From assembly GCA_021018995.1 (NCBI GenBank), contig CM037586.1, positions 148,904,060 through 148,968,059 on the forward strand: a stretch of DNA of 64,000 bases, written 5' to 3'. Numbering within the stretch: the first letter of the stretch is position 1; each line of letters starts with the position of its first letter. The translations under genes were made by a program, and so were the position numbers. A model generated the notes under the pieces. It ran no database searches. It was not told the DNA's origin and saw only the letters and a list, made by a program, of their open reading frames with translations. Positions 2,191 to 62,991 of this stretch are shown here, in pieces. The DNA comes from Chloranthus sessilifolius. Taxonomy: Eukaryota; Streptophyta; Magnoliopsida; Chloranthales; Chloranthaceae.

Positions 2191-2650
2191 CTAATCTCCA
2201 GTGTCATAATGTAGAGGAATCCTCATTAATAACACATCTTTTAGAGCCAGTGTGAACATGCATTGAATCATAAGTGACATTATTTTATAAATTAATATAG
2301 TAAAGACCATTAGATAAAGTACCATTCCCAATACAATTAGATTTATAAAATAGACTGAATGATGAATCTGAAAAATTAAAGAAATATTAAAAGATACAAG
2401 TCTTGAAACTAAAATCAAGTTTCTAGAAAAACTTAGAACATAAAAGATCTTTTCTAACTTTAAAACAAAACCACCACTTAAAATTAAATTGCAAGTTCCT
2501 ATAACTTCCACATGTGAGCCCATCTGACTCCATAATACGATGCTTTGCTCACTTCCCACAGGCTTCCTTAGGTTTTATAAACCATGTAAGGAATCCAAAA
2601 TATGGATTGTTGATCTAGAATCAATCCACCATGTGTTAATATTGACTTTA
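2191..2650 (-). pseudogene. copia element F: protease and GAG-pre-integrase remnant
   Basis: The minus strand at about 2560-2640 reads NINTWWIDSRSTIHIL. This is the copia protease active-site segment, with the usual DSG changed to DSR. It runs into an open stretch (2191-2559) with GTCNLILSGGFVLKLEKIFYVLSFSRNLI-type protease and pre-integrase sequence, where YVLSFSRNL matches the common copia YVPxLxxNL pattern. The protease active site is altered and the reading frame is interrupted. Confidence 0.7.
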
Positions 2651-3480
2651 ACCATATTAGATTAATGATAAGAAAATGAGGTTGGATTACCTTTGTCCGC
2701 AAGCCATTTATGAAATTTGGCGCATTCCTTCTTCATGTGCCCCTTTTTTTTTACAGAAGATACACTTGAAATTTTTCTTAATATCAGCTTGGGGAGGTAT
2801 TTTACCTTCCCCTTTCTTATTGGCTTGAGATTTTTCCTTTTCATGCGTTGCCAGCATTGCACTTTCTCCCTACTTCATCACCAGTCTCCCTTCCTCTTGA
2901 ACACATATGGTCATGAGTTCATTGATTGACCAATTATCTTTATGTGTATTGTATGAGATTTTGAAGGGTCCGTATTGGTGCGGAAGGGTGTTCAAAATAT
3001 AGTGTACCAGGAAGGACTCTGACATTTCATCAGCGAATTTCTTTAATTGAGTCACATTATCCCTCATTTGCATGATGTGCTCATGCACACCTTTCACATC
3101 GGTGGGCCTTAGGGATGAGAACTTCATGATTAGGATACTTGCTAGTGCCTTGTCAGAAGTGATAAATTGTTCATAAATAGCCTTTAGCAAGTCTCGGACC
3201 TTTTCATGCTGATCGATAGAAACACGAATACCAATAGAAATTCTAGTCTTAATGAATATCATGCTGAGGTGATTAGATCGTTCCTATCATTCATAAAACG
3301 TGATATCCGCTGCAATGCTGGTATTAGTGAGTGCTGGTGGTTCATCTTTCCCAATAGCATAGTCTATATCCATCCACCCTAAATGAAGAAGAACTCTCTC
3401 TTTCCAGACCTTATAGTTATCTCCCTTAAGTTCAGAAATTTCACAACGAACATCAGAGAAATTTGCAGGTTGTACAATTA
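2650..3480 (-). pseudogene. copia element F: gag with zinc knuckle
   Basis: This is a Ty1/copia capsid gene of the UBN2 type. From the right end the minus strand reads a GDNYKVWKERVLLHLGW-like start. The main open piece (2870-3262) then contains the typical helical gag region (MKFSSLRP, MRDNVTQLKKF, FLVHYILNTLPHQYGPFKI). A zinc knuckle follows at about 2705-2775 (CIFC, KKGHMKKEC). A run of nine A (minus strand) inside the knuckle shifts the frame, and an in-frame stop separates the first two pieces. Gene order gag, protease, integrase, RT confirms copia. Confidence 0.8.
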
Positions 3481-3894
3481 TATAAAATTATAGATTACAA
3501 GCTTATGTTAAAACCGATGCCTAAATAAAAATTTCATGCTTTACCAATGTAAATCATGTTTAAAAATTGAATGTAATTACATAAAAATTGCCTGTGGGTT
3601 AAATTTTTTTAATCCAAGTAGATTCAATTATTCTTTATGATAGAAATTATCAAATTATTTACTAAAAATAAACTTTATGATAAAACTATCAAATTATTTA
3701 TTACTTCATGATTCTTATGGGTAAGTTATGAATACTTTGATATTTTATCCTAATTAATCATATAAATATAATAATAAATTTTATGGGATAAAATTTATTA
3801 TATTAAATATGATTAATTACAATTAATGTCTAAATATTATTTATGTAATCCTAAATTATAATATATAATTTTTATCAAGGGGCTCTATGGAAAG
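3481..3894. other. AT-rich spacer, no gene
   Basis: This is about 410 bases of very AT-rich sequence between the gag genes of elements F and G. It probably holds the leader or LTR of F, but I find no convincing TG...CA ends or primer site. Confidence 0.3.
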
Positions 3895-4367
3895 TAAGCC
3901 GCCATGAAAAATCACCCTAAAGAGTTTTCAGTTTGGAAAAGAGTGCCGAGACGGACAATGGAGTCCTGTACATAAAGGGCGATTTCAGGTGAAAGTTCAT
4001 ATAAACGAGGAGCATTACTTTGAGCAAATTTTTCGTGGAGTTCAACCCAAAATTCTTGAGCAGAAGTAGCATAAATAACGCTGTTAGAAATCTATTGAGA
4101 TAGGGAGTTGTGTATCCATGATGTAACCATATCATTACATGGTTCCAGTTGGCCAAATTGGCGGAGGTAGAAGACACCACCACTAAGGACCCATCAATGA
4201 AGCCAATCTTATTTTTGGCACTGAGAACAGCGCTCATAGCATGACTCCAAATTGGATAATTTTCTCTTGTAAATGGTTGGTTGGGAAACAACGACAGAAG
4301 CAGGATTGCCGGAGTGATGAAAGAAGAAAGAATTAAAAGAACCAACTGTTGAAGATGAAGAAGCCAT
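3895..4367 (-). pseudogene. copia element G: gag N-terminal fragment
   Basis: A second minus-strand copia gag starts at an ATG at 4367-4365 (MASSSS, then a serine/histidine-rich leader). After a frameshift it continues with NYPIWSHAMSAVLSAKNKIGFIDGS, the signature of the Retrotran_gag_3/copia gag_2 N-terminal family. The ATG lies 37 bp inside the primer-binding site, as expected. The rest of the element is missing: the sequence passes into element F at about 3890. F probably inserted into or recombined with G. Confidence 0.75.
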
Positions 4368-4403
4368 GACAGGTTGGCATCAAAAGAAACGAAACATGAA
4401 AGA

Positions 4404-4416
4404 GGCTCTGATACCA
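4404..4416 (-). promoter_or_regulatory. primer-binding site of copia element G
   Basis: The minus strand reads TGGTATCAGAGCC, complementary to the 3' end of initiator tRNA-Met. It lies just upstream of the gag ATG and marks the inner edge of the 5' LTR, which must extend to the right from about 4419. Confidence 0.8.
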
Positions 4417-4420
4417 TTGA

Positions 4421-4985
4421 TGTTTTGGTAAAACTATATATGTTTCTTGTCATTAATTAAAAATGTATAAATAATAATACAAGAACATCATCCGATCCCT
4501 TGGTTCATGCAATAACTTGAATCTCAAAAATTCCACCCAGCAGTCTGTGATTTTACAAAGGAGTATAATGTAGACTTTGAGAAGTGCACAGAGTTGAAGG
4601 CCCTTAGATCAGCGTCCATCTAAAAGTCTCTTTGGAGTCCCGAGTGGGTAGCTGCACCAAGTAAACTCTAGAGAAAGTAATGTGAATTATTAATTAAAAA
4701 CAAACATTAAGCATTCCATAATGGCCAATTTGGATAGAAAATTTAATTAGATTAGAAACTGGCGTTGCTAGTAATTGAAAATATCTGAAGTAGTGCTATC
4801 CTAAGTGAAATTATATGATCACTGTTGTTTCAAGTCCTACTTGAAAAAACGGTCATCATGATGGGAAAAATTGTTCACCATAAATAACATAAATAGCCCT
4901 GCTTGTGAATTTTTTAACATCGTTGCTGCACCATTTATCTAATCTAGCTAATTAGATTTGGTGTCCAAACTGGCTCTAAATTATA
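4421..4985 (-). other. probable 5' LTR sequence of element G, outer end not found
   Basis: The sequence next to the primer site begins TGTTTTGG on the plus strand (an LTR edge reading CCAAAACA on the minus strand). I could not find the outer boundary or a second LTR copy. No gene is visible in this stretch. Confidence 0.35.
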
Positions 4986-10783: not shown

Positions 10784-11020
10784 TGTAATAGCCCAAAAAT
10801 TCTGAACAAGAACCTGACTGTTTTGATATGCATGCCCAGCACGGGAATCGAGACAGATTTAAAATTTTGAAATAGTATTATTAGAAATAATGTTAAGCCT
10901 GTAATTAGGTGAGTTGACGTGTGAATTCTCACTTAAATCCGAGTCATGTAAGACGTCAAGACGGCGTGCTACGCCGCATCGACCGTGTTCGTGCTTCACA
11001 CCGAAGTCTAAATTAGAGAA

Positions 11021-11060
11021 AACTGAAATGTCAAGGATATTTCAGTTGCTAGCTTATAAA
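11021..11060 (+). promoter_or_regulatory. LTR A promoter: dyad plus TATA box
   Basis: AACTGAAATGTC and GATATTTCAGTT form an inverted repeat with a 3-base loop. It ends 7 bp before TATAAA at 11055-11060. In the 3' LTR (22671-22697, TATA at 22705) the two 12-bp arms are perfect. Transcription would start near 11085, at the pyrimidine-rich CTTTCTTCTTCTTCC. Confidence 0.65.
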
Positions 11061-11382
11061 GGAAGGAAGAGACCTAGAGATATCTCCTTTCTTCTTCTTC
11101 CTCTGGTTCTTGAGCAAAACTTTGGAGCTAGGTTTGGTTTGGGCGAGTTCTTCGTGAAAAGCAGGGTTGGCAATACCCAGGATGGTGAGTTGTCTAAGTT
11201 AGGGTATGTAGAGTTCAATGAGACGAGCTTAAGTATGGTCTAAGTATGCGTGAGGTCTCTGCATACTGAACCAGAGCTAATTGTCTGCTCGTCGGAGTCG
11301 GATCGGTGATAAACTGCGAGAGCCGGATCCGAAACCCTCGTTCGGATCGATTTGCCGAAACCCCGAAAGGGCCCAACTAAAG

Positions 11383-12947
11383 GTGAGTCCGTGTGTTTAA
11401 AAATAGGCAGTTGGATGCCCTAATATGTGCATGTGAGTGTGTAGTAATGGTTGTAAGAAACCATGAATGAAAATGGGTTAAAAATAGGGATGTAGATGAC
11501 CTCCATTAATGACAGAAGTTCTGTCATTATTGATCGATCAATGGCAAGATTGATCGATCAATGACTGGCGGTGATCAATCAATGAAGACCATTGATCGAT
11601 CAATCTGTATAAGACAAAGAAGGGAACAAAAGCCCTGAAATTCTGGAAGTTCAGTGCACGAAGGGTATTGATCGGTCAATTTGTTGATTGATCGATCAAT
11701 CCTGTGCATTGATTGATCAACAAGAGAGTGATCGATCAATGACTGGTGGTGATCGATCAATGAAGGCATTGATCGATCACTGGAGTGTATTGATCGATCA
11801 ATGAAGGCATTGATTGATCAATTTGTATAAATGTTAAATGTGAACAGAAGGTGGAAAATTTGAATTTTAGGCTATTGATCGATCAATGAGGGTATTGATC
11901 GATCAACAGGAGGCATTGATCAATCAACCAAGCTGGTGATCGATCAATTTTGACTGTGTTAAAATGAGGAGAGAAGAGGTTATTGATCGATCAACAAGGG
12001 TATTGATCGATCAATGATGAGTAGTGATCGATCAATAAAGGTTATTGATCGATCAATTGATTCTGTTCCTGGTTGAGAGGTAAGAGAGGATTGATCGATC
12101 AATGGGATCATTGATCGATCAACATGTGGGATTGATCGATCAACAAGAGTGGTGATCGATCAATCACCCCTGTTTTCAGCCTGTTTTGATTTTGTGAGTT
12201 GAATACTATTGGACACCGTGCCAATTCACGTCCCGACATTCCTGACATATAGAATACTATGTTTATGGTCTAGGATCAGACCATGACGCCTTGGATTTGC
12301 TTAGAAAGAGGTCTAATCTGAGGTAGGGGAAAACCAACCTAAACCGTTTTGAGTATGATTTCATATTTATTTCATATCTGCGCCCTGATTTTTGTTTTAA
12401 CAAGCATGTAAGCATGCCATAAATTTCTGCTATCTCTGATTTCTGTTTCCTAATTTGTATCTTGAAACCTGCTTCTGATTTCTGTTATCTGATCTGTGAG
12501 GTCTATGTGTATATGTGATTTGATGATTTAACCAGATGATCCCCACCGACCCGGTGGTGTATTCGAGCCTGGCACACTTGTGCATCTGCTTGTAATCCCT
12601 CGATACAATTACACTCCATAGATGAGGCAATGTTGCAATCTAAAATTGTTCATGTGAACAACGATTGGTTGGGGTTTCTTATCGGAATATTCCTGTTTAC
12701 TCCGTGCTATATAGTCACGGGAGTTTCTTAAGTTATAAAACATATACAATTTAAGTCTCTGATCATATACTTGCATAACATTTGTTTCTGTATAAAAGCT
12801 CAGTATTTGATTTCGTATGTCCTGTTTACACGTTCTGATTTGATTTTCTGCTTTGAGGTATCATGACTTGCATGTTCAATTCATTTTAGTTGGAATTCTT
12901 CTATTGAGCTAGGATGTAGCTCACCCTATTTTCTAAATCACTTTTAG
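11383..12947 (+). other. predicted leader intron inside LTR A
   Basis: Donor AAAG|GTGAGT at 11383 and acceptor CACTTTTAG|GTTCTGAG at 12947 bound 1565 bases that contain the whole GATCGATC array. A GAGCTAGGATGTAGCTC hairpin lies about 25 bases before the acceptor. Solo LTRs B and D and LTR C have donor and acceptor in the same relative places. No RNA evidence is available here. Confidence 0.5.
11537..12165. repeat. TTGATCGATCAA palindrome array, 5' LTR of A
   Basis: About 19 perfect GATCGATC cores, mostly within ATTGATCGATCAAT, are scattered at irregular spacing (roughly 15-45 bp), with about six one-base variants. Variants are mostly GATTGATC or GATCAATC, which is what CpG decay would give. 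It is not a simple tandem repeat, because the spacers are unique. Confidence 0.9.
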
Positions 12948-13060
12948 GTTCTGAGGCTGTAGTTCCTGGCACTGAGAGCCACCCAGATTACCAGCCTGAC
13001 CCAGACGCTGAGGTCGAGGATGAGGAGACAGACATCCAGGCGGACGAGTTCTATCCGTAG
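12948..13060 (+). CDS. acidic 3' exon encoded in LTR A
   Basis: This is an open segment of 38 codons when entered in phase 1 (the G before the acceptor completes the first Gly). It is rich in Asp, Glu and Pro, including the run DPDAEVEDEETDIQADEF, and ends FYP-stop. It follows a predicted 3' splice site and has no ATG of its own, so it would be a terminal exon. LTRs B, C and D carry acidic open segments at the same place behind an AG|G acceptor and in the same phase. No known family is recognised. Candidate upstream exons are the leader (blocked by stops) or, in the 3' LTR, the extra ORF of element A. Confidence 0.45.
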
Positions 13061-13188
13061 CTTGGGTACTGAGTCTGATATTTGCATTTTGGATATTCCA
13101 TATTATTGTGTGCCTGGTGGCCATTGTCTGTATGTATATATATATTACTATCTATATTGTATTTTTGTTATTTTATACATTCTATTAG

Positions 13189-13250
13189 AACCACTATCGG
13201 GAACCATTGTTTGGGTGATGGATGTCCATCACCAATGGTTCTTCTTGGTT
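13189..13250 (+). other. conserved stem-loop in LTR A
   Basis: GAACCATT pairs with AATGGTTC, and inside it GGTGATGGA pairs with TCCATCACC around a TG loop, with a 4-5-base bulge on the 5' side. The 3' LTR copy (24893-24955) changes one inner base so that a G-U wobble is kept. Comparable stem-loops lie in LTRs B and D. Confidence 0.65.
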
Positions 13251-13359
13251 CCTTTTTGGGAATGTATATTCTTTTGGTAAATATAATTACATGTTTTATT
13301 TATTGTGTTCTTTTATATGTTGTGCCTTATGTAATGACTCGACCTACCGCTGCTGAGTA

Positions 13360-13393
13360 GTGTCTGCTTGGTTTCCGCTATACGAGCAGACAC
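13360..13393 (+). other. hairpin near the end of LTR A
   Basis: GTGTCTGCT and AGCAGACAC form a perfect 9-bp stem. A second small hairpin (CGGATTTTC / GAAAATCCG) lies at about 13440-13463, ten bases before the LTR end. Either could act in 3' end formation or packaging. Confidence 0.45.
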
Positions 13394-13475
13394 TTTATGA
13401 TTTGTCTCGAGGATCATCCAGAGTATGATCATGATGGCACGGATTTTCGGGTGTGAAAATCCGGGCTGTTACAGT

Positions 13476-16215: not shown

Positions 16216-17636
16216 GATTTTACCATCAAAGATGATGACACTTTGCTATTTAGAGATCAGATGTGCATACCTAATACAAAAGATCTTAAAGATACGATTT
16301 TGGAAGAAGCGCATAAGTCTACATATGCTATACATCCTGGGAGTACCAAGATGTATCAAGATCTCAAGCAAAGTTTTTGGTGGAGAGGACTGAAGAAAGA
16401 TGTTGCAGATTATGTTTCTCGGTGTTTGGTCTGCCAGCAGGTGAAAGTGGACCATCGAAATCCAGCGGGTTTGTTACAACCATTGCCAGTGCCAGAGTGG
16501 AAATGGGAAGCCATTTCTATGGATTTTATTCTAGGATTGCCGAGCACATTGAGAAAGAATAATGTCGTTTGGGTCATTGTAGACCAACTGACGAAATCTG
16601 CACATTTTCTGTCATATCAGACTACATTCATAGCCAATAAGCTAGCAGAGCTGTACATGAAGGAGATAGTTCGGTTACATGGCATACCAGTCAGCATCAT
16701 ATGTGATAGAGATCCGCTATATACTTCGTAATTCTGTCGACGATTTCAAGAAGGCATGGGTTCTAAATTGGAGTTCAGCTCAGCGTTTCATCCTCAGACA
16801 GATGGGCAGACTGAGAGAGTGAACCAGATTATAGAGGATATGTTGCATGCATGTATGTTGGACTTTCATGGTTCATGGGATCAACACTTGCCTCTGATCG
16901 AGTTCGCTTACAATAACAGCTATCAGTCAAGTATTAGGATGGCGCCTTATGAAGCCTTATATGGACGTCGATGCAGATCTCCATTGAATTGGGAAGAAGT
17001 CGGCGTGAAGCTTGTTTTGGAACCTGAGATCGTGGACAGTACCACCGAGACAGTTAGGTTGATCCGCGAAAGGTTGAGGGTTGCTTAAAGTCGCCAAAAG
17101 AGCTATGCCGATCTCCATCGAAAGCAAGTGGAGTTTCAGGTATAAATGAATACGTTAGACGAAGAGTAAGCCCATAGTTCAATTGATTTGCTATGGAATT
17201 AACACTTGTTTTCCAGGTTGGAGACAAGGTATTTGTGAAAATCTCGCCAACCAAGGGTGTGATGCACTTTGGGAAGCGCGGAAAGCTGAGTCCTCGATAT
17301 ATCGACCCATTTGAGGTACTCGGACGGGTTGGTGAAGTCACTTATCGGATTGCCTTGCCACCACAGTTGGCAAGCATGCATAACGTTTTTCATGTGTCTA
17401 TGCTACGACGCTACGTACGCGACCCGACTCACGTCTTGGATGTCCAACCAATTAAGCTACAAGAGGATTTGACGGTGATTGAGGAACCGATCGCAATTTT
17501 GGATCATAGAGATCAAGCCTTGCGGACCAAGTTGATTCCACTGGTGCTAGTCAAGTGGAGAAATCATTCAGATTCGAAAGCTACTTGGGAGAGAGCAACT
17601 GAAATTCGCAAGCAGTACCCGCATTTGTTTACTTAA
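16216..17636 (+). pseudogene. chromovirus A integrase and chromodomain-like tail
   Basis: It resumes, after the RNase H deletion, with [19 protein letters not shown]. The HHCC zinc domain follows ([19 protein letters not shown] ... CLVCQQVK), then the DDE core with SMDFILGLP and ICDRDPLYTS, a TAA stop at 16729, and HPQTDGQTERVNQIIEDML carrying the catalytic Glu. Another TAA at 17086 interrupts. After a predicted 77-base intron (17140-17216) comes VGDKVFVKISPTKG, the GPY/F-like PRYIDPFEVLGRVG, and a chromodomain-like end LVKWRNHSDSKATWERATEIR before the stop at 17634. This marks a chromovirus. Confidence 0.9.
17140..17216 (+). other. predicted intron in chromovirus A pol
   Basis: The coding line VEFQ/VGDKVF is split by 77 bases that begin GTATAA right after TTTCAG and end TTGTTTTCCAG before GTTGGAGAC. 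Removing them restores the frame across the junction exactly. 77 is not a multiple of three, so the unspliced RNA would be out of frame. Confidence 0.7.
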
Positions 17637-18368
17637 TGTCAAAGGTATGTTCACGGATCAATTTACGTTAATCATTGTACGTATATGCGTAATTTACCGG
17701 GTACTGTATGTATAGTATACAGTACCTTCGTTGTTATGAATACCATAGATCCGAGTTTAAAAGAATTTAAACGAATAAAAATATATAAGAGGTTGGTTAC
17801 TGGTGTGATTAATCGATCAATAGGAGTATTGATCAATCACCATAGTTAATTGATCGATCAAGAGAAGGCATTGATCGATCAACAATGGTTAGTAGTATGG
17901 TGGAGCTCGATTGATTGATCGATCAATTTTAGATTGATCGATCAATGTAAGGTGTGTTGATCGATCAACATAGTAGTGATCGATCAATAATAAGGTCATT
18001 GATCGATCAACAGGGTAGTGATCGATCAATTAAGGGATCATTGATCGATCAATTAAGGGTATTGATCGATCTATGCATCGGGCCAGGGCATAAAGATGCT
18101 TTATTGATCGATCAATAAAAGCATTGATCGATAAATTCTGGGGTTTAAGTTAAGGTTTGGGATTTCGAACGGTCATTTGCACGAAGCTATTAGAGTGATC
18201 GATCAAGGGCTTTCGGACTCCGACCGTTCAACCTCCTTCCCGACTCATCTCCGACCATCTACATCCTTCCTTCCGCGTGATTTGAGTGGACATTTCTCCA
18301 TTCGCTCGGTAAAGCTTTCTTCTCGTTCATTTCGAGTCTTGTTTCGTGCTTATTTGCAAATTTTGACC
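17637..18368 (+). promoter_or_regulatory. pol-aORF spacer: hairpin, TATA-like box, palindromes
   Basis: GGTACTGTAT (17700-17709) and ATACAGTACC (17717-17726) form a 10-bp hairpin 65 bases after the pol stop. A TATATAA box lies at about 17782-17788. The LTR-type TTGATCGATCAA palindromes are clustered at 17806-18140, just before the extra ORF. This looks like a separate 3' end and promoter region, by inference only. Confidence 0.4.
17806..18140. repeat. TTGATCGATCAA palindrome array, internal copy in A
   Basis: More than a dozen GATCGATC cores occur with unique spacers, as in the LTR array, but the surrounding sequence is not an LTR copy. It stands between pol and the extra ORF. Confidence 0.85.
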
Positions 18369-20068
18369 ATGGGCCCGCGAACGAAGAACGCTTCTCGGAA
18401 GATCCCAACATCCCGCGCTCGTACACCCGTACCGCCCTCCGTTCCTGTTCCCTAACCACCCGTGACACCCGTGGCACCAGTTTCGAACGTGGTGCCACCT
18501 GTTCCGACCCCCGTTCTGATTCCCATCAAATGTGAAGTGCCCAAACCTTGGTGGGCTTCCAAAACGTTCCTACCCGAGTATGTTTTTACGTCCTCGCTCT
18601 ACGAGGACCGACCTGAAATGGCTTGGGCCAAGGGTTATATCCAAAAGCTCGGGTTGAAACCCTTGCTTGAACCATTTCATGACCATTATTGTCCACGTCT
18701 CGTACGACTATTTTTTCAAAACCTACGATGGGGTAATAATGGCCACCGACTCATCACAACCATCGATGGGTTTAAATATAAATTCAACCATTTCCATGTG
18801 GCGGCAACACTTCAATGCCCGTCCGCTTACATTGAGAACGCGGGCTTGGATGCCCCGTACGTCAAGGAGGTCTCTTTCACTGACGTGGTCACCAAGATGA
18901 CCCAAGGTCAGCACGGGAAGGGACAATCCATATCTCGGGCCCAATTACCCGATAAATTGTGGATGCTTGATACGTACATCAAGTGTGCACTTAACCCAAT
19001 TTTACACAAGTCCTCGCGGACTGGGGTGGTGCAACAAGCACTATTTTCTGCTTTTGAGAACCGTTGGTTCTCTATGGCCGACTTGGTCCTCGATGGCATC
19101 ATCAATGCCAATGACCTTATGTCTGAGAAGGTCAAGTCGGGGGTTAAGAAACAAATCCCCTATGCTCGCCTCATCACTAAAATGGTAGAGCAGTATGCCG
19201 CTCTACGCGAGGCATATACTTTGGCTCCTCACGAGCCACGCTTGGTCGATAACACTAAAGTCTTTTACCTAAAAGACTGGACCAAGAGTTACAACTTATT
19301 GGTTCGACGGTGTAATATCCCAGATATTTTGGATCAGATTTTGTTTACCTTGGTAAGCGTGCCTGGAAAATTTATGGGACGAACCAGGAGTATTTAGGTA
19401 GGTTAAGGTATGATGAGAGATGTGGTCAAAGGATTTTTTATCTGGATTTGTGGATGTCATGTATTTGATGACATATACGCTAAGAATGGTATATGTGCTT
19501 AGCACCGAAAATAAATGCATGTTAAGTGGATGGAACTTCAAACATAAATATCATGATATTTATAGGAAAAATCATGATATTTTGAGGAGAGAGGTTTGCT
19601 TATAAAGGGAGAGGATTAAGAGAGAAGTTGATCTCTTCTTCCTCACGTATGAACTAAGCTTTGCAACCCTTGTTCTTCTTGCTTAGATCTTTAGAGATTT
19701 AGAATTCCTCTCACCATCTCAACCATTGTTAAGCCTTGTATCATGCTTCTGATTTGATTAAGATATTGGGAAGGAAGACTAGGGGAGAGTGGACGGTTTG
19801 GTGAAGGATCTGGGCTAAACTTTGCCCTGGTAGCAAGGTGAAGATGGACTGATTTTGGGGTCCAAATTGGAACTTGCGGCTTAATTCGGTGCTTAAGAAT
19901 AGATCCACGGAAGCTAGGTGTAGACCTTGAAAGGTAAGCTCTTTAAACACCTTTGATTAAAATTATTTATGCTTAGAATAGTTTAGATAAAGGTCGAAAA
20001 GATAGATGGATTGGTGTTTTGGAATGAAAAATCAAGTCGGAAGAACAAATCTGGAACACACAGATCTG

Positions 20069-20212
20069 GAGAAATTCGATGGTCGAATTTCAATTCGATG
20101 GTCGAATTTGAAATTCGACCATCGAAAATAAATTCGATAGTCGAATTTGGGTTTTTAAGCCTGATGCATTTTTGGGAAATTCGATGGTCGAATTTGAATT
20201 CGATGGTCGAAT
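20069..20212. repeat. AATTCGATGGTCGAATT palindrome array in solo LTR B
   Basis: Six copies of an interrupted palindrome (TTCGA, 3-base centre, TCGAA) occur; one is inverted and one has a variant centre. It sits inside the predicted LTR intron, as the GATCGATC array does in LTR A. LTR D has two related copies (GAGGGTCGAATT-type) near 31780-31840. Confidence 0.8.
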
Positions 20213-21345
20213 TTGGTCCGACACTGCTTTGGTATTTCGGTCATAACTTTTTATCCCGAACTCGGATTAATGCGATTTCTGAGGCGTTGGAAAGAAAACA
20301 ACAAGACCTATAACTTTCATGAATTGATCAATTTGTGAATCAAATGTTATAAAGGTCAAAAATTAGGGTGAAGTAGGGACAAGTTTTTACATGAGTCAAT
20401 GTTACCTTAAACTTGCCTGTTTCACCTAACTGTGAGAAAATTTTAGAAACTTTGGCTTATATGATAATTAGTCGGTAACATGTGTATACATGAATGTTTG
20501 TAATGTAGATTAAAGATTGGAGATCGTCGAGTGAGCTTTTACTTTGCCTCTGATATGCTCGACTCTAAACTAAGGTAGGGAAAACTTGATATCATGTGCA
20601 TTATTTCATAAACATGTGTGTTATGTTATGATACGTTCTTCGATTCTATTTTGTGATTTCCGTTTATGATTTTGAAGAAATGAGGCATGTGTTTATGTAT
20701 GACTTAAAAACATGTGAGACTTATGGAATCTTGATTCATTTGATATGTGTATAAGAGACTTTCACACTTTGTTCCGACTTCTGATATAAATTATAATTAT
20801 CACTTCACACGGCGATAAGCTATATGTATGCACTTTTGGATTTAAGGTTATGTGAATACCCGACCGACGCGGCGGTATAACCGTGACTGACGCGGCAGGA
20901 TATCCGTGACCGGTACGGCGGCCAATCCGTACACCCTTTGTGATTCCTACCGTATAACGGTAATTATGTTCGGCCAAGTGTCCAACTCTACGGGACCTTA
21001 GATTTATGTGCAAATGACTCATGTGAGTGACGATGGTGGGTATTCCATCGGGGGCTTGAGGCTATAGTTCCTCATTCTAGTACTTTAAGTAAACACTTTT
21101 AAGTTTTTCTTCTTTCTTATGTCGGAATAGAAATGTGAGCATGTTCATGATTCCATTAGCATTGCATATGTATGTTAAGGTTATGAAATCACCTCTCTGC
21201 ATGTGTTCAAAACAACTTTGTGTACGTTATGCCATAAGATATGTGTTTGATGTTATGATAAGCATGTTATTAGTTTTTTTTTCCTACTGAGCTTGGATGA
21301 AGCTCATACCCCGACTATAAATCACAGTCTTGACATTTGCCTTAG

Positions 21346-21401
21346 GATCTTTGGAGAACTCGACTACATTCTTTGAGGAGGAGTTGGAGACCCCAGCATA
21401 G
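21346..21401 (+). CDS. acidic 3' exon remnant in solo LTR B
   Basis: Entered in phase 1 from the predicted acceptor, the frame reads through TTFFEEELETPA to a TAG at 21399. The relative in LTR D continues past this point to EEFFP-stop, so B is probably truncated by a point mutation. It has no ATG of its own. Confidence 0.35.
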
Positions 21402-22420
21402 GAGTTCCTTCCTTGATCGAGATAGGTCATTTTGGTACTTTTGGATTATAATCTTTTTGAATATTGGGCCCTAGGCCATTGTTTTGTCTTTTGGATATCA
21501 CTTGAGGAACCATCAATAGGAACCATTGTTTAGGTGTTTGGATTGGCCAACACTGGTGGTTCTTTCTGGTTCCTCTTGGTGATATTTTTTGTTAAAGCTT
21601 TTAAGCTTTTGTTCTTGTTTTATTAGCTTTGCTTCTATTTAGATCTATGCTTATGCTACCGGCTTTGTTTGAAATATGGCTTATTGAGAAATCAATAAGA
21701 TGATGAACCGGCCTTTCCTATACCTTAAGGATTGGAAAAGTCGGGTCATCACAGACGGCTTCCGGAGGAGGAGGAGGGCGCCGCTGAGCCCATTCCACCC
21801 GCCGTCGCTGAGGGTCACCCACCGAGCCTGCATCTGGAGAGGGGTAGGCCCCACGTGATCCACCACCTCCGCCTGAGGTGTCTACCTGACCTGCCCCCAC
21901 TACACCCCGTTGACTGCTCCGTCACACCATAGCCCATCCCCCACCATCTTCCTCGGACGACGTCGCGGTGATGCTTCGTGAGCTGGTGGAGGGAAACCGA
22001 CGGATACACGAGCGGTTGGATGGCATGGAGGCGTTCCAGAGATAGATCCATCGTCGTCTGGATTACCATGAGGGCATGCATGAGCTGGTCATGCAGCGTT
22101 TATATGCCACGACGTCCACGCCGATGATCGCCCACGCTGTGTCAGCACGTGGTGGAACCTCATGATTACCGCACACCACCGCCTCGTCCCAGCAGACCTA
22201 CGCCTGACGAGGCCGGACCATCTGACGTCCCTACAGGTATAATTATGCTATTTATATGCTGTTCTTATATTACTTATATCTGTATCTAGATTATTCTGCT
22301 TTTCGTATAAATTCCATTCTGCATGCCTATTTATTTCTGCATGATACTTTGACTGCGTTATACGCCTTCCAACTATTATGTCACCACACCTCTTAGACAT
22401 TTTCGAGGATGAAAATTCCT

Positions 22421-22433: not shown

Positions 22434-25169
22434 TGTAATAGCTCAAAAATTTTGAACAAGAACTTGACTATTTCGATATGCGTGCCCGGCACAAGAATCG
22501 AGACAGATTTAAAAATTTGAAATAATATTATTAGAAATAATGTTAAGCCTGTGATTAGGTGAGTTCACGTGTGAATTCTCACTTAAATCCGAGTCATGTA
22601 AGACGTAGAGACGGCGTGCTACGCCGCATCGACCGTGTTCGTGCTTCACACCGAAGTCTAAATTAGAGAAAACTGAAATATCAAGGATATTTCAGTTGCT
22701 AGCTTATAAAGGAAGGAAGAGACCTAGAGAGATCTCCTTTCTTCTTCTTCCTCTGGTTTTTGAGCAAAACTTTGGAGCTAGGTTTGGTTTGGGCGAGTTC
22801 TTCGTGAAAAGCAGGGTTAGCAATACCCGGGATGGTGAGTTGTCTAAGTTAGGGAATGTAGAGTTCAATGAGATGAGCTTAAGTATGGTCTAAGTATGCG
22901 TGAGGTCCCTGCGTACTGAACCAGAGCTAATTGTCTGCTCGTCGGAGTCGGATTGATGATAAACTGCGAGAGCCGGATCTGAAACCCTCGTTCGGATTGA
23001 TTTGCCGAAACCCCGAAAGGGCCCAACTAAAGGTGAGTCTGTGTGTTTAAAAATAGGCAGTTGGATGCCCTAATATGTGCATGTGAGTGTGTAGTAATGG
23101 TTGTAAGAAATCATTAATGAAAATGGGTTAAAAATAGGGATGTAGATGACCTCCATTAATGACAGAAGTTCTGTCATTATTGATCGATCAATGACAAGAT
23201 TGATCGATCAATGACTGGTGGTGATCGATCAATGAAGACCATTGATCGATCAATCTGTATAAGACAAAGAAGGGAACAGAAGCCCTGAAATTCTAGAAGT
23301 TCAGTGCACGAAGGGTATTGATCGATCAATTTGTGGATTGATCGATCAATCCTGTGCATTGATCGATCAACAAGAGAGTGATCGATCAATGACTGGTGGT
23401 GATCGATCAATGCCAACAAGAGAGTGATCGATCAATGACTGGTGGTGATCGATCAATGAAGGCATTGATCGATCACTGGAGTGTATTGATCGATCAATGA
23501 AGGCATTGATCGATCAATCTGTATAAATCTTAAATGTGAACAGAAGGTGGGAAATTTGAATTTTAGGCTATTGATCGATCAATGAGGACATTGATCGATC
23601 AACAGGAGGCATTGATCGATCAACCAAGCTGGTGATCAATTAATTTTGACTGTGCTAAAATGAGGAGAGAAGAGGTTATTGATCGATCAACAAGGGTATT
23701 GATCGATCAATGATGAGTAGTGATCGATCAATAAAGGCTATTGATCGATTAATTGATTCTATTTTTGGTTGAGAGCTAAGAGAGGATTGATCGATCAATG
23801 GGATCATTGATCGATCAACATGTGGGATTGATCGATCAACAAGAGTGGTGATCGATCAATCACCCCTATTTTCAGCCTATTTTGATTTTGTGAGTTGAAT
23901 ACTACTGGACACCGCGCCAGTTCACGTCCCGACATTCTTGACATATAGAATACTATGTTTATAGTCTAGGATCAAACCATGACGCCTTGAAAAGCTTTGG
24001 ATTTGCTTAGAAAGAGGTCTAATCTGAGGTAGGGGAAAACCAACCTAAACTGTTTTGAGTATGATTTCATATTTATTTCATATCTGTGCCTTGATTTCTG
24101 TTTTAACAAGCATGTAAGCATGTCATAAATTCCTGCTATCTCTGATTTCTGTTTCCTGATTTGTATCATGAAACCTGCTTCTGATTTCTGTTATCTGATG
24201 ATCTGTGAGGTCTGTGTGTATGCGATTTGATTATTTAACCAGATGATCCCCACCAACCCGACGGTATATCCGAGCCTGGCACACTTGTGCATCTGCTTGT
24301 AATCCCTCGGCACAATTTCACTCCATAGATGAGGCATTGTTGCAATCTAAAATTGTTCATGTGAACGACGATTGGTTGGGGTTTCCTATCGGAATATTCC
24401 TGTTTACTTCGTGTTATATAGTCACGGGAGTTTCTTAAGTTATAAAACATATACAATTTAAGTCTCTGATCATATACTTGCATAACATCTGTTTCTGTAT
24501 AAAAGCTCAGTATTTGATTTCGTATGTCCTGTTTACACATTCTGATTTGATTTCCTGCTTTGAGGTATCATGACTTACATGTTCAATTCACTTTAGTTGG
24601 AATTCTTCTATTGAGCTAGGATGTAGCTCACCCTGTTTTCTAAATTACTTTTAGGTTCTGAGGCTGTAGTTCTCGGCCTTTGAGAAGCGACCAGTTACCG
24701 GCTGACCAGGAGTGAGGTTGAGGGCGAGGAGAGACATCCGGGAGGGCGAGTTCTGTCAAGTAGCCTAGGATCGATATTTGCATTTTGGATATTCCAGATT
24801 ATTGTGTGTCTGGTGGCCACTGTCAGTATGTATATATATATTACTATCTATATTATATTTTTGTGATTTTATACATTCTATTGGAATCACTATCGGGAAC
24901 CATTGTTTGGGTGATGGATGTTCATCACCAATGGTTCTTTTTGGTTCCTTTTTAGGAATGTATATTCTTTTGGTAAATATAATTACATGTTTTATTTATT
25001 GTGCTCTTTTATATAATGTGCCTTATGTGATGACTCGACCTACCGCTGCTGGGTAGTGTCTGCTTGGTTTCCGCTATACGAGCAGACACTTTATGATTTG
25101 TCTCGGGGATCATTCAAAGTATGATCATGATGGCACGGATTTTCGGGTGTGGAAATCCGGGCTGTCACA
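22434..25169 (+). repeat. 3' LTR of chromovirus A
   Basis: It begins TGTAATAGCTC and ends GGCTGTCACA. Compared with the 5' LTR it has a 45-bp internal duplication in the palindrome array (array at 23178-23868) and scattered transitions. Its acidic exon (from 24655) is damaged by small deletions, so the frame closes early. Confidence 0.92.
23178..23868. repeat. TTGATCGATCAA palindrome array, 3' LTR of A
   Basis: Same array as 11537-12165, with more perfect GATCGATC cores and a local 45-bp duplication at about 23366-23455. Confidence 0.9.
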
Positions 25170-25174
25170 GTCTG

Positions 25175-30494: not shown

Positions 30495-31004
30495 AATTTA
30501 TCTCTTCAACGTGACCTCTTTGATAACATGAAAGGTTAGAAATTCGATGCCTCGTGAAAATCGAACTCTGACCATGGATCAAAATCTCGGTCGAAATTTT
30601 AAATTTTTTGGCCGAGACGTCTCGGTTTCAATCTGAACCGAGACGAAAAATATAAAAATATCGGACCCCTTCTGAAAATACAAGATTATCGGCTGAAATT
30701 TTAAATTATCGGCCGATAGCTGGTTTGCATTTTTTAAATTTTTTTACAGTTTTTTTACAAAAATCAAACAATTTTTTTAATTATTTTCTGGAGACTTGTC
30801 GGAACCTCGCCGGATTCCACCGAATCTCACCGAATTTTCTGGAGACTTGTCGGAACCTCACCGGATTCCACCGGATTTCATGATTTCCCCCCTGTTTTTT
30901 CCCTTCCTTGCTTCTTTAATCCCAGAAAAATAAAATATTGGAGGAGGAGAAGGAAAAAAAAAAAAAAAAAAGCAAGAAAGAGGACCTACTTGGCGGCTTT
31001 CTTT

Positions 31005-33122
31005 TATAATATTCCTGATATTTTAGACCTGATTTCGATTACCTCGGTATGCATGCCCAAAAAATTTACTGGACGAGTCTGAGTTATTTGGGTAACTTAG
31101 GGTATGATGAGAAATGTGGTCAAAGGATTTTTGATTTGGACTTGTGGAAGTCATATACTCAATAACATATACGTTAGGTAGTTTGTATGCGCTTAACACC
31201 GAAAAGAAATACATGTTAAGTTGATGAGATTTCAAACATAAATATCATGATATTTATGTAAAATATCATGATATTTGAGGTGAGAATTTAGGTTATAAAG
31301 GGAGGGGATTGAAGAGGAAGTATGATCTCTTCTCCCTCACGTATGAACTAGAACTTGCAACCCTTTATTTTTGATTAGATCCTTTGAGTGTTAGAATCTC
31401 TCTCCCCATCTTAGCAATTAATAAGCCTTGTATTATACTTCTGATCTGTTTAAGATATTAAGAGAGAAGGATAGGGGAGAGAGGATATTTCTGTGAAAGT
31501 TTGGGTCTCTTGCTCTTGAAGCAAGATTGTGATGGACTGACTTGGAAGTCCAACTAACTAAAACTTGAGGTTTTGTTCCTGCGCTTGAATTTGGAGAAAC
31601 GGGAGCTGAAGGATTTAACTTCAAGAGGTAGGCTTTTAAACCCCTTTGAGTTAATTAATTGTGCTTTGCTTAGAGTAGAAAAATTGTGTGTATAGCATAG
31701 ATAACAGGTTTTGTTTTGGAAGATTAAATTGCAAGAAAGGAGACAAAGAAAATTGAACAAGCACAGACTTGGAGAAATTTGAGGGTCGAATTTGAGCTTT
31801 TAAAGCCTGATGCAATTTTGGGGAATTCGAGGGTCGAATTTTACACTATTTTTTTATTTTTTGGAGACTTTTAGAAAATGTTTGGGGTGCCTTTTGGTTG
31901 ACTTTTTGGACTTAATTAACACCGTTGGTGTTAATCGTTGTAGGTTTTGTGATATGAGTCCATTGTGAGAACTGCTTTGCATACTTTTGGAGCAAATTGA
32001 GTTGAGGTAGGGAGACCCTAAACCTACTTTGCATTCTATTATAAGTTTAGGTTATTTGTTTGCAAGCATGAAATCTGAACTTTGATAAGCAGTACATGAT
32101 TAAGAATTCCGAAACTTTGATATAAGAACTCAGAAATTTGAACTTCCGAACCTCATCTTCGAATGTGAACTTTGAATCAGAACTCCGAAAATCTGAAAAT
32201 GTATTAATTACATAAAATATGATATATTTCATATTTGCATTTGATTTGAGGCACATACGAACGAAACCCTAGATCCTACCAACAGTGTTGACGGTAATTC
32301 AGTTTGGCGTAAGTTTCCCTCATTACGTAGGGGCTTGTTGCTCTCTTCAAAAAAGGGTTCATAAACAATGATGGTCAATAGAGTTTCCCATCGGTGATAC
32401 TCTTACTCTCATGCTAATATGTAATTTGAGAGATTATACTTAAGCTATAAGTTTAAGACAAGAAGCATGTTTAATTCAGAATTTGAAAACATCAGAACAT
32501 CAGATTTATTGAATCATCTTTTGGCATTCTATTTTAGAACTAGAATTTAGACATCAATGCATCTTTTGAAAATCATATCTGATCCGATTTTGTCTTTGAA
32601 AAATCTTTACTTATGATAAAAATCCAAATGGATAAGTTTCCTCTATTGAGCTTCGATGCTAGCTCACCCCGACAATATGTCACAGGTGCTGAGACTAACC
32701 TGGGATCGGAAGATCTGGATATGGAGGACTCCGACTATATTCCTGAGGAGGAATTAGAGACCCTAGCGGAGGAATTCTTTCCTTGATCTGGATTCGTTCT
32801 TTTTATACTTTTTGGTTTATAAGTATTTTGAATATTGGGCCCTAGGCCATTGTTTTGTTTTATTTTTTCTATCATTTGAGGAACCATCATTAGGAACCAC
32901 TATTTTAGGTGTTGGATTGGCCATCATCGGTTGTTCGTCCTAGTTTCTCAGGGTGATATATTATTTTGTTATGATCTTTTGTCTATGATTATTTAATTTT
33001 GCTTCTGTTTTGTTCTTTGCTATGCTGTCAGCTTCCGTTTGTTTAAGGCTTATTGAGAAATCAATAAATTGATGAACCGACCTTTCCTATACCTTAAGGA
33101 TTGGAAAAGTCTGGTTGTCACA
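31005..33122 (+). mobile_element. solo LTR D
   Basis: It begins TATAATATTCC (relative of TGTAATATCCC in B, second base mutated) and ends GGTTGTCACA. Flanks TCTTT/CCTTT give a weak target duplication in a CTTTC-rich setting. It has two perfect AAATATCATGATATTT palindromes (31240-31255, 31261-31276), TATAAA at 31294, donor TCAAGAG|GTAGGC at 31628, acceptor GTCACAG|GTGCTGAG at 32685 and a GGAACCA stem-loop near 32880-32945. It is the same family as B but strongly diverged. Confidence 0.82.
32686..32786 (+). CDS. acidic 3' exon in solo LTR D
   Basis: The 34 codons open in phase 1 after the predicted acceptor include GSEDLDMEDSDYIP and EEELETLAEEFFP before TGA. It shares the EEELET and EFFP/EFYP endings with B and A. 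It has no ATG of its own and belongs to no known family. Its being open in an old, diverged solo LTR is notable. Confidence 0.45.
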
Positions 33123-36551: not shown

Positions 36552-36709
36552 GTGATTACATTGACGGAGGAGACATGTGCTATCTAGATTCTGCTGATGT
36601 TGACTTCGTTGACCCCGTGGGCGTTGAGTACCAGGAGCCTTGGGAGGGTGACGTTGCTGATTACCAAGAGGACTTCGGTGCTAACTTTGATATAAGCACT
36701 GGTTATTGA
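36552..36709 (+). CDS. acidic 3' exon in 5' LTR of C
   Basis: The 53 codons open in phase 1 after acceptor CTGCAG|GTG contain DSADVDFVDPVGVEYQEPW and DYQEDFGANFD, ending GY-stop. The 3' LTR copy (40719-40876) has the same length and is also open despite many base differences, which suggests past selection on the protein. It has no ATG of its own. It is acidic like the exons in A, B and D, but alignable to them only in composition and in DY/ED motifs. Confidence 0.5.
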
Positions 36710-37017: not shown

Positions 37018-37801
37018 GAATGGTATCAGAGACCAGACTGTACTTCCTCGAGGACTGTATGGGTTATGTAAGTATAATATGTTGATTGAGGTTATGATGT
37101 TTCTGATAGACCCTAGACTTTAAATCTTTTGACGACTTAATTGTTTTAAGGAGGTTCAATCATTAATGATAGAAGACCCTATGATTCAATTTTGTATTTA
37201 AAGATTTATTTAAAAATAACTTATATAGTTAGGAACTTGTGAGAAACATTAAAAATAATCTATAAGGATTGAAAAATAATGAATGAAACTTTTCTAAAAT
37301 TGAGAGGTGATTAGATAAATAAATCCTTAAAGATTTGACTATTTAAGATTCTAAGTGATCTGAGATGCCAACTATAAGAATAGTTGATTCTAGGTTATAT
37401 TACAAATAACTTCAATAATTGGATCAAGTGAATATTCGACTAAAGTGTGACATACCACACATTTGGAGAAATTAGTCACATCGGATCAGATTATTTTATA
37501 AATTGATGAAATAGAGCCTAATTTTATTATAAGGAAGGGAAGATCCTATTCCTATGATATCAAATATTAAGTATCGAAAATATCAAAGTTTTGATGAGAT
37601 TAATAGAGATGATGATACTAGTTTTTAATCAATGCCTAATTTTCGATGACGAAAATTTTTAAGGAGGGGAGAATGTAATGACCCTGATTTTTGTTAAGGT
37701 TGAATCGTTGACTTTTGATGAGAAGTTTAGATTATGAAGCCCGAGCTCATCACCTAATGTACGTAATTTTTGAGGATAAAAATATTATAAGGGGGAGAGA
37801 A
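37018..37801 (+). other. internal region of element C (784 bp, non-coding)
   Basis: A primer site TGGTATCAGAG lies at 37021-37031 and a polypurine tract AAGGGGGAGAGAA at 37789-37801. A second, older tract AAGGAGGGGAGAA at 37661-37673 is followed by an LTR-like start TGTAATGACCC at 37674. No open frame of useful length is present. Confidence 0.8.
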
Positions 37802-40800
37802 TATAACAACCCGGATTTTTGGACTTTATTTTAATGGTGTTAGATGATGTACCACACCATGTACGGTGCTAAAGCTCTACATCGGAACCTACCATCTTTT
37901 AGAAAAGTTCTGATTTTTCTATATTAATATTAGACTCATTGCGAAGTGCTCATCAATACGATTCCAACGATATATAATTTATCGATTTTTGACAAGAATA
38001 TAAAAAGTTACACCTATTTTAAGTAATGAAACAAGTTAAAGGGTATAATTATAAATTCATGAGAGAAACATCAATTGTTTCGGTACTTACACAAAGCGCT
38101 AGAACAAAACCTTTTCTCAACCTATTCAAGTCAGGCATGAATTCTTATTGCGTGGAGTAACTTCTATTTTATTAAATCCTTTACGAAAAGTCTTAATTAC
38201 AGTTAACCGAAAACTTTTTATCATTATAAATAAAACTTTAAAAACTCTATACTATCTATAATTAGAAATTATTCTCTCCTAAGACTTAGATGAACCGACG
38301 ACTTGGGCATCGACCTTTTCAACCCGAACTGTCATAGATCTACCATTCACGCTTCAAGAGGTGGGTACCCATCAATCCATCTTGTTCTTCTCAGATTCTA
38401 TTACGTAGGATGTGTTCGACCGCGCATCGACGGGTTTAAAAATCTTATTTAAACCTTAATATCTTATAAATTAATAGATTTGCATGTTTAATATTATGCT
38501 TTCCCTTAAAAGTTGTACAATTTATAGGCCGAGTAATATTTTATTTCTCTTTTCAAACAATTCTTTTATTTGGCTATTAATATTTTACCTTCTATTAGGT
38601 CTGTATATTTAATATTCTTCTTCTTAAATCTACATACTAATTAATTATGAATATCTTTAAGTATGATAAATCTGTATATTTAGTATTTTATTTTTCTATT
38701 AAAGTTGCATGATTTGTAGGTCGAGTTTGTATTTTGTTTCTTTTTTCAAATAGTCTATTTATTTGGTTATTTAATATTGTACTTTTCTATTAGGTCTTCA
38801 TATTTAATATTTTACCCTCTTTTAAATTTATAATTTAATTAAACTCTAATATTTATAAGTCTGATAGATTGACTTAATTGAAATAATACCATATTGATAT
38901 TATTTATTTCTAAATCTATATAATTAGTAATTTACCCTCTTACTAAAAACTATAATGACATATTATTGTTGCAAGTTTTATCATCATTTATTTAAAACTA
39001 ATTAAGCCCAAAATTAAACTATGTTCTTATTTTATTTAAAAGAATAATAGATTGCACAATCTTAAAGTTTCGGTGGGTCCGAACTCAGGACTACGAACTC
39101 GAGCTTGTGACCATCGATATACCGGTTCTGATATTTTAGCCATAACTTTTTACTCCAACCTCGGATTGATGCAATTCTTGCGGCATTGAAAAGAAGACAA
39201 CGAGCTTTACAACTTTGTGTGACATAGACATTTTACAAAACTGACATTTTAGAGGTAAAAATAGAATAACAAGTCAGGTTCAATTTTGAATGACCCAAGG
39301 CTATAAGAATTTGGTGTTATTCTCTGATTTTCATGATCAAAGTTCTTATGTATATTATATCTTAAGGTCTTTCGATCGATGGTCATGATAAATCACAACT
39401 TAGTAATTATAAATATATTTTAATTTAATTATCCAATTATAGTAATTTATATATATATTAATTTAACACTTCAACGCGACCTCTTCGATAACATGAAAGG
39501 TTAAAAATTCGATACCTTGTGAAAATTGAACTCTGACCTTCACATTTTTGAAATTACATTAATAACTATCCTATCCTATAAGTGTATTGGTGTTATGTAT
39601 ATATATATATATATATATACATATAAATATAATAAAATCTAAATATAAATCTATGATGTGTGTATGTTAGTGTTATGCTTCTATCTTTATCATGATATAT
39701 GAGTTATGAACACGTTAGATTATACGTATGGGAGTAAATGAGATCATGCCTATGCTTGGACGTCGTGATTCGCCGAAATAATATCAAAGCGAGGAATACT
39801 TCGTATTCACATGCCTTACAACTCATGGTGGTATGGGGCATCATGACAAGTTAGGTGAGTGCGAATTCGGTGTAACCTTATATACGATGGCATATACGGT
39901 AACCTTATCACCCCGAGTTTTAATATGAGAAGAGAGAATAAGATATGAGTTATGATATGAGATTCGGGCCTTGAGCCTTAGCTGTGGTGATGTTATCCTA
40001 CTATAGTTCGTCTTTAAATTAACTTGTAAGAGTATGATATGAGTATGAGTACGAGATAAAATATGTTATGAGGACGATAATAAGAAATCACTGTGTAGAC
40101 CAGCAAAAGATTAATAACTTAAGTCTCTGTACGTATCATTCCTTGTCTAGCTACCGTAATGGCAACAACGTCTTTCAACCAAGACGGATATCTGGGAGAC
40201 AGTATTAGTATGAGTGTGAGTCTCAGTATGAGTATAATATGAGTTATGTTTGACCATTATGTCTCCCCATTAGGTTGTGTGGAGAGTATGAGGAGGATAG
40301 GGAGGGCGATTAGATAGAATATGATATGTATGGTGGTATGATATTATGGCGACCCTCAAATGATAGCTCGAGCAGCAACTCTGACACAGGTCATTTAGGA
40401 TTTATGAATATGTTAGTTACGCTCATACGATGTACATACGTATGTGCGAGAATACTAAAATATGGTATGTTACGAGTTATAGTGATATACATTAAGATAT
40501 AAGTATCTAGATTATGGTCATGTATTTATGTTATGATATGATTTCTAGGTTATGCTCTTGATTTTGTCATGCACTTTCTGATTTCATTGTTATATTATCT
40601 TTATCACTCATTTGATGCACCGACAATGCACCTGAGTAGAATGGGGTGGATTGCTGGTGTATCCACCGAGTTTACGTGCTTGAGTAAACTCATCCTACGA
40701 AAATCTAAACAGCTGCAGGTGATTACGTTGACAGAGGAGACACCGGCTATCCAGATTCTGCTGACGTTAACTTCGTTGACCTCGTAGGCCTTGAGTACCA

Positions 40801-41184
40801 GGAGCCTTGGGAGGATGATGTTACTGATTACCAAGAGGACTTCGGTGCTGACTTTGATCCGAACACCGGTTATTGATAGTTTTAGCCTCGGTATCACGTT
40901 TCATTTGATAGTTTTGTGTTGACTCTATATTTTCTTTTATCGGATTTGTCTCCGACTTTCATTATTGTCTTATTGGTGGATTACTTGTATTCATCACTTT
41001 CGTTCAATTATTTATGACAACTTTTATGTTTCTACTTTATGTGTTGGTTTCACGAATTTCGTGGAACCAAACTTACGTGATAACTTTGATTAAGTGTATG
41101 TCCGCTTAGTATATCCAGGATATGTGCGGGTCATAACTTGGAATTCTAAGCCCTCCAGATGGGGTAGAATTTCGGGTTGTGACA
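37802..41184 (+). repeat. 3' LTR of element C
   Basis: It begins TATAACAACCC (second base mutated) and ends GGTTGTGACA. TATAAATA is at 38225, donor TTCAAGAG|GTGGGT at 38361 and acceptor CTGCAG|GTG at 40718. At 39535-39545 it shows the uninterrupted site where H3 entered the other LTR. Confidence 0.9.
40719..40876 (+). CDS. acidic 3' exon in 3' LTR of C
   Basis: This is the partner of 36552-36709, also 53 codons and open. It reads DSADVNFVDLVGLEYQEPW and DYQEDFGADFDPNTGY before TGA. Both copies keep every acidic cluster. Confidence 0.5.
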
Positions 41185-41189
41185 GTATT

Positions 41190-62455: not shown

Positions 62456-62991
62456 CCATTTCCCATCATGCACAATAAGCTCCGGTCCGCCAAGACAAGA
62501 ACCATCATTTTTACTTCTCTCTTAGTGTCTCTTTGTTATTTGTTTTACACTAAAATATGACTTTTTGTTTGTTTTTTCCCCTTCTATACCTTTTTTTGAA
62601 GTTTTCCTTTGTGTGGTGAAGAGTAATAATGTCATCGAAGAGCCAAATGACACTATCGAGGATGGTGATGATGACAATTGGGTAAGGGAAGATGTGGTTG
62701 GACCAACTGTAGATGCACCTCCCCAAATGTGTGTTCCGCAACAAGCTCCTTCAACTGATTTCATTAACGATGGCCTTGGATCAGATTATGATTCTCAAGT
62801 GGATGGACGTGTTTAACTATTTCCCATCATGCACAATTAGCTCTGGTCGACCGAGACAAGAACCATCGTTTTTACTTCTCTCCTAGTGTCTCTTTGTTAT
62901 TTGTTTTACTCTAAACTATGATTTTTTGTTTGTTTTTTTCCCCCTTCTATACCCTTTTTTTGAAGTTCTCCTTTGTGTGGTGAAGAGTAAT
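62275..62991 (+). repeat. 360-bp tandem duplication of transposase tail and 3' region
   Basis: The segment from the acidic tail through the 3' flank (about 62275-62630) recurs at about 62635-62991. The second copy keeps the open EEPNDTIEDGDDDNW frame and its stop (62564-62816). The copies are very similar, so the duplication is younger than the gene's decay. Confidence 0.85.

Follow-up and report, generated by a model that had tools for sequence, protein, structure and literature searches.

Can the long terminal repeat (LTR) of a plant retrotransposon supply the last exon of a protein? The question is raised by a short stretch at positions 12948 to 13060 of a 64,000-nt region of the Chloranthus sessilifolius genome (the window), part of which is filled by nested Ty3/gypsy elements, here called A, B, C and D. 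A first-pass annotation, made from the letters alone, had proposed that LTRs of all four families contain a 3' splice site followed directly by an acidic open segment that would end a protein. The acidic segment of the LTR is a real and conserved feature, and it is probably a terminal coding exon of the retrotransposon itself, located inside the LTR, with a putative role in self-activation.

Element A is bounded by a 5' LTR (10784-13475) and a 3' LTR (22434-25171), both on the plus strand and 92% identical, the second being the copy that would be spliced. The primer-binding site TGGTATCAGAGC at 13476 is presumably of the tRNA-Met type. A profile search identified the domains Retrotrans_gag, RVP_2, RVT_1 and Integrase_H2C2 (gag, protease, reverse transcriptase and integrase), and a chromodomain at the C-terminus of the integrase (PF00385, 31.2 bits versus a cut-off of 25.1) marks the element as a chromovirus. 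Long LTRs and the chromodomain, and only these two features, suggest the Tekay/Del lineage, to which element A may belong. Its pol ends at 17636, upstream of an additional open reading frame (aORF) and of the 3' LTR. The solo LTR B (19311-21755, plus strand), with GACGG on either side, is inserted within this aORF, and self-comparison of the window placed the single LTR D (31003-33122, plus strand) within the 5' LTR of element C. The latter has two LTRs, the second at 37804-41185, which are separated by only about 785 nt. LTRs B and D, both of them single, come from related families, with 74% and 76% identity over two long matches. The LTRs B and C, which can otherwise hardly be aligned, have about 88 nt in common (20230-20317 in B, 39129-39216 in C, 76% identity). 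On the minus strand, 2200-4456 resembles by eye a Copia-type element; it contains a broken gag-like sequence and the primer site GCTCTGATACCA (plus strand) at 4405.

Re-reading of the four families bore out the coordinates, acceptors, phase-1 frames, stop codons and acidity of the segments as first annotated. The lengths of 38, 53 and 34 codons given at that time hold if the split codon and the stop are counted; what is encoded amounts to 36, 51 and 32 amino acids plus a stop. All segments lie on the plus strand. The exon of the A 5' LTR (12948-13060), entered in phase 1, encodes 36 amino acids and a stop, that of D (32686-32786) 32 amino acids and a stop, and those of the C 5' LTR (36552-36709) and C 3' LTR (40719-40876) 51 amino acids and a stop each. 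In the A 3' LTR (24655-24761) the frame is lost in the window copy, and in B (21346-21415) an early stop leaves only 21346-21401 open; the bases past this stop read EFLP-stop and resemble the ending of D. Loss of the frame in the second A LTR and the early stop in B are expected of dead copies. The segments form GC-rich islands (GC content 0.48-0.58 versus 0.31-0.41 in the flanks), and in A, C and D aromatic residues are interspersed among the acidic ones. How often such an arrangement occurs by chance was estimated from all 7085 AG sites of the window (3752 on the plus and 3333 on the minus strand): a site was counted if the phase-1 frame behind it stayed open for 30 codons or more and (D+E-K-R)/length reached 0.2 or higher, for which the B segment is too short. 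On the plus strand, 15 nested sites were found, which correspond to the A 5' LTR, D, both C LTRs and a tandem pair at 62280 and 62641; on the minus strand, none of the 3333 AG sites precedes a long acidic phase-1 run. The tandem pair belongs to a duplication at 62263-62991 with a unit of about 361 nt, 91-92% identical, which holds an acidic open segment after the AG at both sites.

Searches of the window's own 2.17-Gb genome at the DNA level returned 3393 first-look candidates for A, 2541 for D and 2909 for C, 40 of which were scored for each family. For A, 48 loci were given to the alignment and 43 copies were read, among them the window copy and a few places represented more than once; for D and C, 20 copies each were read. 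After removal of rows with an exon indel and of identical rows, dN/dS was calculated from 35 of 44 rows for A, 21 of 21 for D and 17 of 21 for C. A value well below 1 had been proposed as a check on the coding nature of the segment. It was found in A (0.21 in the true frame versus 0.97 and 1.27 in the other frames) and in D (0.28 versus 0.40 and 1.86, the 0.40 being low as well), whereas C (0.46 versus 0.51 and 0.79) displays no codon constraint beyond that of the off-frames.

Variants common to at least two copies are synonymous in 16 of 37 cases in A (binomial 0.001), 13 of 25 in D (0.0006) and, as a slight enrichment, 22 of 69 in C (0.02), compared to an expectation of about 0.2 that treats all changes as equally likely and ignores the excess of transitions. 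The contrast between shared and private variants is weak in A (p=0.12) and D (p=0.05), modest in A and D together (p=0.015) and absent in C (p=0.72), and shuffling of alignment columns gave P values of 0.045 (A), 0.058 (D) and 0.56 (C). The acceptor AG is kept in 40/44 (A), 20/21 (D) and 17/21 (C) rows and the terminal stop in 42/44 rows of A and 21/21 of D; most A copies end in DEFYP-stop and D copies in EFFP-stop. Of the 41 distinct copies in A, 30 have a fully intact exon with AG, open frame and stop, as do 19 of 20 in D and 9 of 20 in C; these figures overestimate intactness, since sampling began with the best matches and was thereby biased towards intact exons. Sequence comparison thus supports a coding role of the segment in families A and D.

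All four families have a short hairpin just before the acceptor. That of the A 5' LTR reads TGAGCTA-GGATG-TAGCTCA (12905-12923, plus strand); A, B and D have in common the form TGAGCT-loop-AGCTCA, and C has TGAGTTTAC-loop-GTAAACTCA, with other bases in the same shape. In single-strand predictions the hairpin folds in most copies of A, C and D, exceptions being, among others, L040, L077 and L092 in A, L132 in D, and L107 and L114 in C. The A-type pattern (up to 2 mismatches) is not over-represented in the window, with 14 occurrences versus 10.6 expected, so that its recurrence at one and the same position, and not its number, carries the argument. A hairpin pattern also matched 16 viral contigs.

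If the segment is a last exon, a donor in the same phase is needed upstream, and in element A the candidate is provided by the aORF. On the plus strand, its first part spans 18369-19310, with a premature stop at 18453-18455, and its last part 21757-22236, ending in DEAGPSDVPT-G; in the window copy the frame is split by LTR B and damaged by this one stop and by frame breaks, also within the last part. Directly at its end lies the phase-1 donor CTACAG^GTATAA (22237-22242, plus strand), 197 nt upstream of the 3' LTR, which by a crude score ranks 66 among the 3338 GT sites of the window. An alignment of 28 distinct rows, window included, out of 50 loci revealed conservation of the GT in 27/28 rows, of the acceptor AG in 27/28 and of both together in 26/28. 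Identity amounts to 0.85 across the 99 nt before the donor versus 0.66 at intron positions 7-92, differences upstream of the donor at the three codon positions are 0.10, 0.087 and 0.261, a strong excess at the third position, and the GC content falls from 0.62 to 0.34 at the donor. Donor and LTR acceptor are both phase 1, a match with a one-in-three chance by itself, and the joined frame runs on into the acidic tail. Judged from these alignments, the region has the anatomy expected of an exon-intron boundary with the LTR segment as putative 3' exon, and such a predicted partner exon is well supported in family A only.

A 75+75-nt probe across the A junction, by which a spliced retrocopy would be detected, gave none that spanned the join among the 40 of 1659 candidates that were scored, an uninformative null because spliced RNA without the polypurine tract should not retrotranspose. 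Upstream of the aORF no convincing conserved pyrimidine tract with AG was found, the best candidate being located about 85 nt before its ATG. The idea that the LTR itself contains an upstream exon starting with an ATG was rejected: no conserved GT site (score of at least 4) gave an open phase-1 frame with a start in all families, and a few isolated GT sites in single LTRs have an ATG.

A protein search of the genome with the aORF yielded 136 scored matches from 46400 first-look candidates, a good part of them without stops. The window aORF matches PF20167 (Transposase_32, 'putative plant transposon protein') with 15.7 bits (E 0.014 for its first part), below the cut-off of 45; three of five other aORF copies scored 14.9-15.2 bits and two had no match; elsewhere in this genome, the 150 top-ranking places pass the cut-off. 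None of 557 candidate homologs in the protein collection reached E<=0.001, and the viral contigs contained no relative of either the aORF or the reverse transcriptase segment. A search of solved structures with the aORF returned weak matches only, the best (E 0.12) to G-protein alpha chains, and single-sequence structure prediction was unusable (mean pLDDT 37).

The LTR acceptor could also be reached from elsewhere. A second 5' splice donor on the plus strand, AAAG^GTATGT (17645-17650), is placed 8 nt past the pol stop (17634-17636) and is the best-scoring of the 3338 GT sites. AGGTA is present there in all 29 aligned loci (30 given), and the pol frame is closed by a stop ahead of it in all of 30 rows except L053. 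As this donor is by far the stronger one, it may be an additional or even the main user of the LTR acceptor; alternatively, its acceptor may be one before the aORF, where the candidates are weak. In the D family, the counterpart of the aORF (39% identity over 77 residues, E 6e-14) ends, in the four copies read (L099, L100, L142, L143), in its own internal Asp-rich tail and a stop before the LTR; the D LTR nonetheless keeps its own conserved acidic exon, and three of the four copies have a candidate phase-1 GT at the matching place. The C-family relative L141 has no aORF between pol and LTR. Its pol-like sequence, broken by stops, reaches to about 45 nt from the expected start of the 3' LTR, where a phase-1 A^GTACGT is found; at the equivalent place beside the C 3' LTR the window has GTACGT (37759-37764, plus strand), with no open frame in this copy. 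Given the internal tail in D and the pol end without aORF in L141, the partner of the LTR exon may vary from family to family.

Two readings of the segment follow from these additional donors. The LTR exon might be a C-terminal extension of pol, attached to the chromodomain end of the integrase through a donor at the end of pol, at least in C and perhaps ancestrally. The position of the L141 pol end and its phase-1 site agree with this idea, as does the window C copy, which retains GTACGTAATTTTT at the site of L141, but the C-family case comprises two copies only, one of them with a pol broken by stops, and in A the pol is not extended because the in-frame stop precedes the post-pol donor in nearly every row; we regard such an extension as possible, though doubtful. 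Acceptor and segment could, on the other hand, form a conserved non-coding 3' exon that is spliced within the 3' UTR from the post-pol donor, the acidic reading being a by-product of base composition. An intron right behind a stop codon requires no reading frame, and the donor involved is both the best-scoring and conserved. This would leave unexplained the frame-specific conservation in A and D, the retention of the terminal stop in both, their related acidic endings EFYP-stop and EFFP-stop, and the second conserved, phase-matching donor at the end of the aORF, which makes a non-coding exon improbable.

The preferred reading thus remains that of an LTR-encoded last exon for a protein of the element. 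Exon, phase, conservation of donor and acceptor, dN/dS, hairpin and arrays are features of the DNA itself, on which the following course of events is modelled. The pre-mRNA of family A would extend from the aORF downstream of pol into the 3' LTR. Splicing from the phase-1 donor that closes the aORF to the phase-1 acceptor of the LTR would then remove the polypurine tract along with the beginning of the LTR. The aORF protein would gain from the LTR an acidic, aromatic C-terminal tail together with its stop codon. The hairpin before the acceptor may limit splicing, which would allow full-length genomic RNA to survive. The product might be a self-encoded transcriptional or anti-silencing factor, whose acidic tail could act as an activation domain.

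Candidate binding sites of such a DNA-binding aORF protein are provided by arrays of TTGATCGATCAA-like palindromes. The main array of the A 5' LTR covers 11521-12164 (plus strand), that of the 3' LTR 23177-23861, and another 16 sites are clustered in the spacer between pol and aORF (17809-18206, plus strand). With up to 2 mismatches, each whole A LTR has 25 sites, the rest of A beyond LTRs and spacer none and the rest of the window 7. The 760 nt before the aORF contain 10-19 such sites in 30 of 30 loci, one of which is the window copy, versus a mean of 0 after base shuffling. LTRs B and D have a different palindrome, AATTCGATGGTCGAATT, with 5 and 2 sites (up to 3 mismatches). The arrays in the LTR and before the aORF, together with the acidic-aromatic tail, favour a self-encoded activator, and a self-activating factor is, by inference, the most attractive function of the aORF protein.

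Comparable arrangements are known from other systems. According to excerpts of PMC7390438, the foamy virus regulator Tas (Bel-1) binds to an internal promoter as well as to the LTR, and its acidic activation domain lies at the C-terminus. The likeness concerns the way of working only: foamy viruses are another viral family, and activation and DNA binding are predicted here from sequence. VANDALs are DNA transposons. In Arabidopsis they encode the VANC anti-silencing proteins, which recognize short motifs in tandem arrays that differ between related elements (PMC5735166, in excerpt). An element-encoded protein and motif arrays are common to both cases, again as a working analogy in which binding by the aORF protein is presumed. 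In element A, arrays of a motif do occur at the two places, LTR and upstream of the putative regulator gene, where a similar mode of action would have them; membership is not implied. Tentatively, and with some doubt, element A may be viewed as a chromovirus with a Tas- or VANC-like self-activator, whose LTR contains the activating tail along with the operator array that the protein reads and whose families diverge by swapping matched arrays and proteins.

The spliced protein may be real and its tail nevertheless serve a role outside transcription, for instance in particle assembly, RNA handling or nuclear transport. The nearly pure Asp-rich tail of the D-family proteins, which differs from a typical activation domain, points in this direction, while two features point away from it, namely the aromatic residues scattered through the acidic segments of A, C and D, and the palindrome arrays at both places required by a self-activator; such a role is plausible, if somewhat short of an even chance. 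Far less probable is that the LTR mainly works as an alternative last exon for host genes, for which only the wide recurrence of the acceptor with its open phase-1 segment speaks (the thousands of first-look candidates given above for each family, 40 of them scored). Owing to this recurrence accidental host fusions may exist, but conservation along the element lineage requires selection during retrotransposition, and one of the two A LTRs is open and the other has lost its frame. The proposal that an LTR supplies the C-terminal exon of a protein thus gains from the coding signal in A and D and from the phase-matched upstream exon in A, while C shows no such coding signal. Nothing in these sequences points to a host protein as recipient, and the tail does not look like one lent to host proteins, since its candidate partner, the 3' aORF, belongs to the element itself.

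The statement that LTR-encoded C-termini had not been described proved too strong. In the CRM group A centromeric chromoviruses, the polyprotein reaches into the 3' LTR, which contains the CR motif and encodes the C-terminus (PMC3059260, in excerpt). These elements are likewise plant chromoviruses with the C-terminus of an element protein encoded by the 3' LTR; their polyprotein, however, is read contiguously into the LTR, whereas the pol of element A stops far upstream, which sets it apart from the group, and the LTR segment is located behind a splice acceptor and seems to be part of the aORF. Additional ORFs have been reported in other plant LTR retrotransposons, namely 5' aORFs in Tekay and 3' aORFs in Athila (PMC7264820, PMC11728184, both in excerpt). 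They have in common with the present case an extra conserved sense ORF beside gag-pol, which in the chromodomain element A follows pol on its 3' side, with the last exon apparently in the LTR. Retroviral genes situated in the 3' LTR, such as MMTV sag and HIV nef, are expressed from spliced RNA and have their own start. Element A differs from these in that its LTR would contribute a tail exon only, without a start of its own. The excerpted accounts of aORFs and chromoviruses in PMC7264820, PMC11728184, PMC11963269, PMC6317226, PMC3605345 and PMC3485330 do not mention an LTR exon, and no description of an LTR-encoded spliced exon was found in the available portions of open-licence papers, which is not proof of absence. 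LTR-encoded C-termini are thus already known from CRM group A, and it is the spliced LTR exon of an aORF for which these sources gave no description.

If the proposed exon is real, LTRs of abundant plant retrotransposons would hold, besides their regulatory role, a protein-coding exon that is reached by splicing over the polypurine tract. Such an arrangement would offer a testable route of self-activation for Ty3/gypsy elements, and many LTR copies would be predicted to provide an acceptor and an acidic tail for capture by nearby transcripts.
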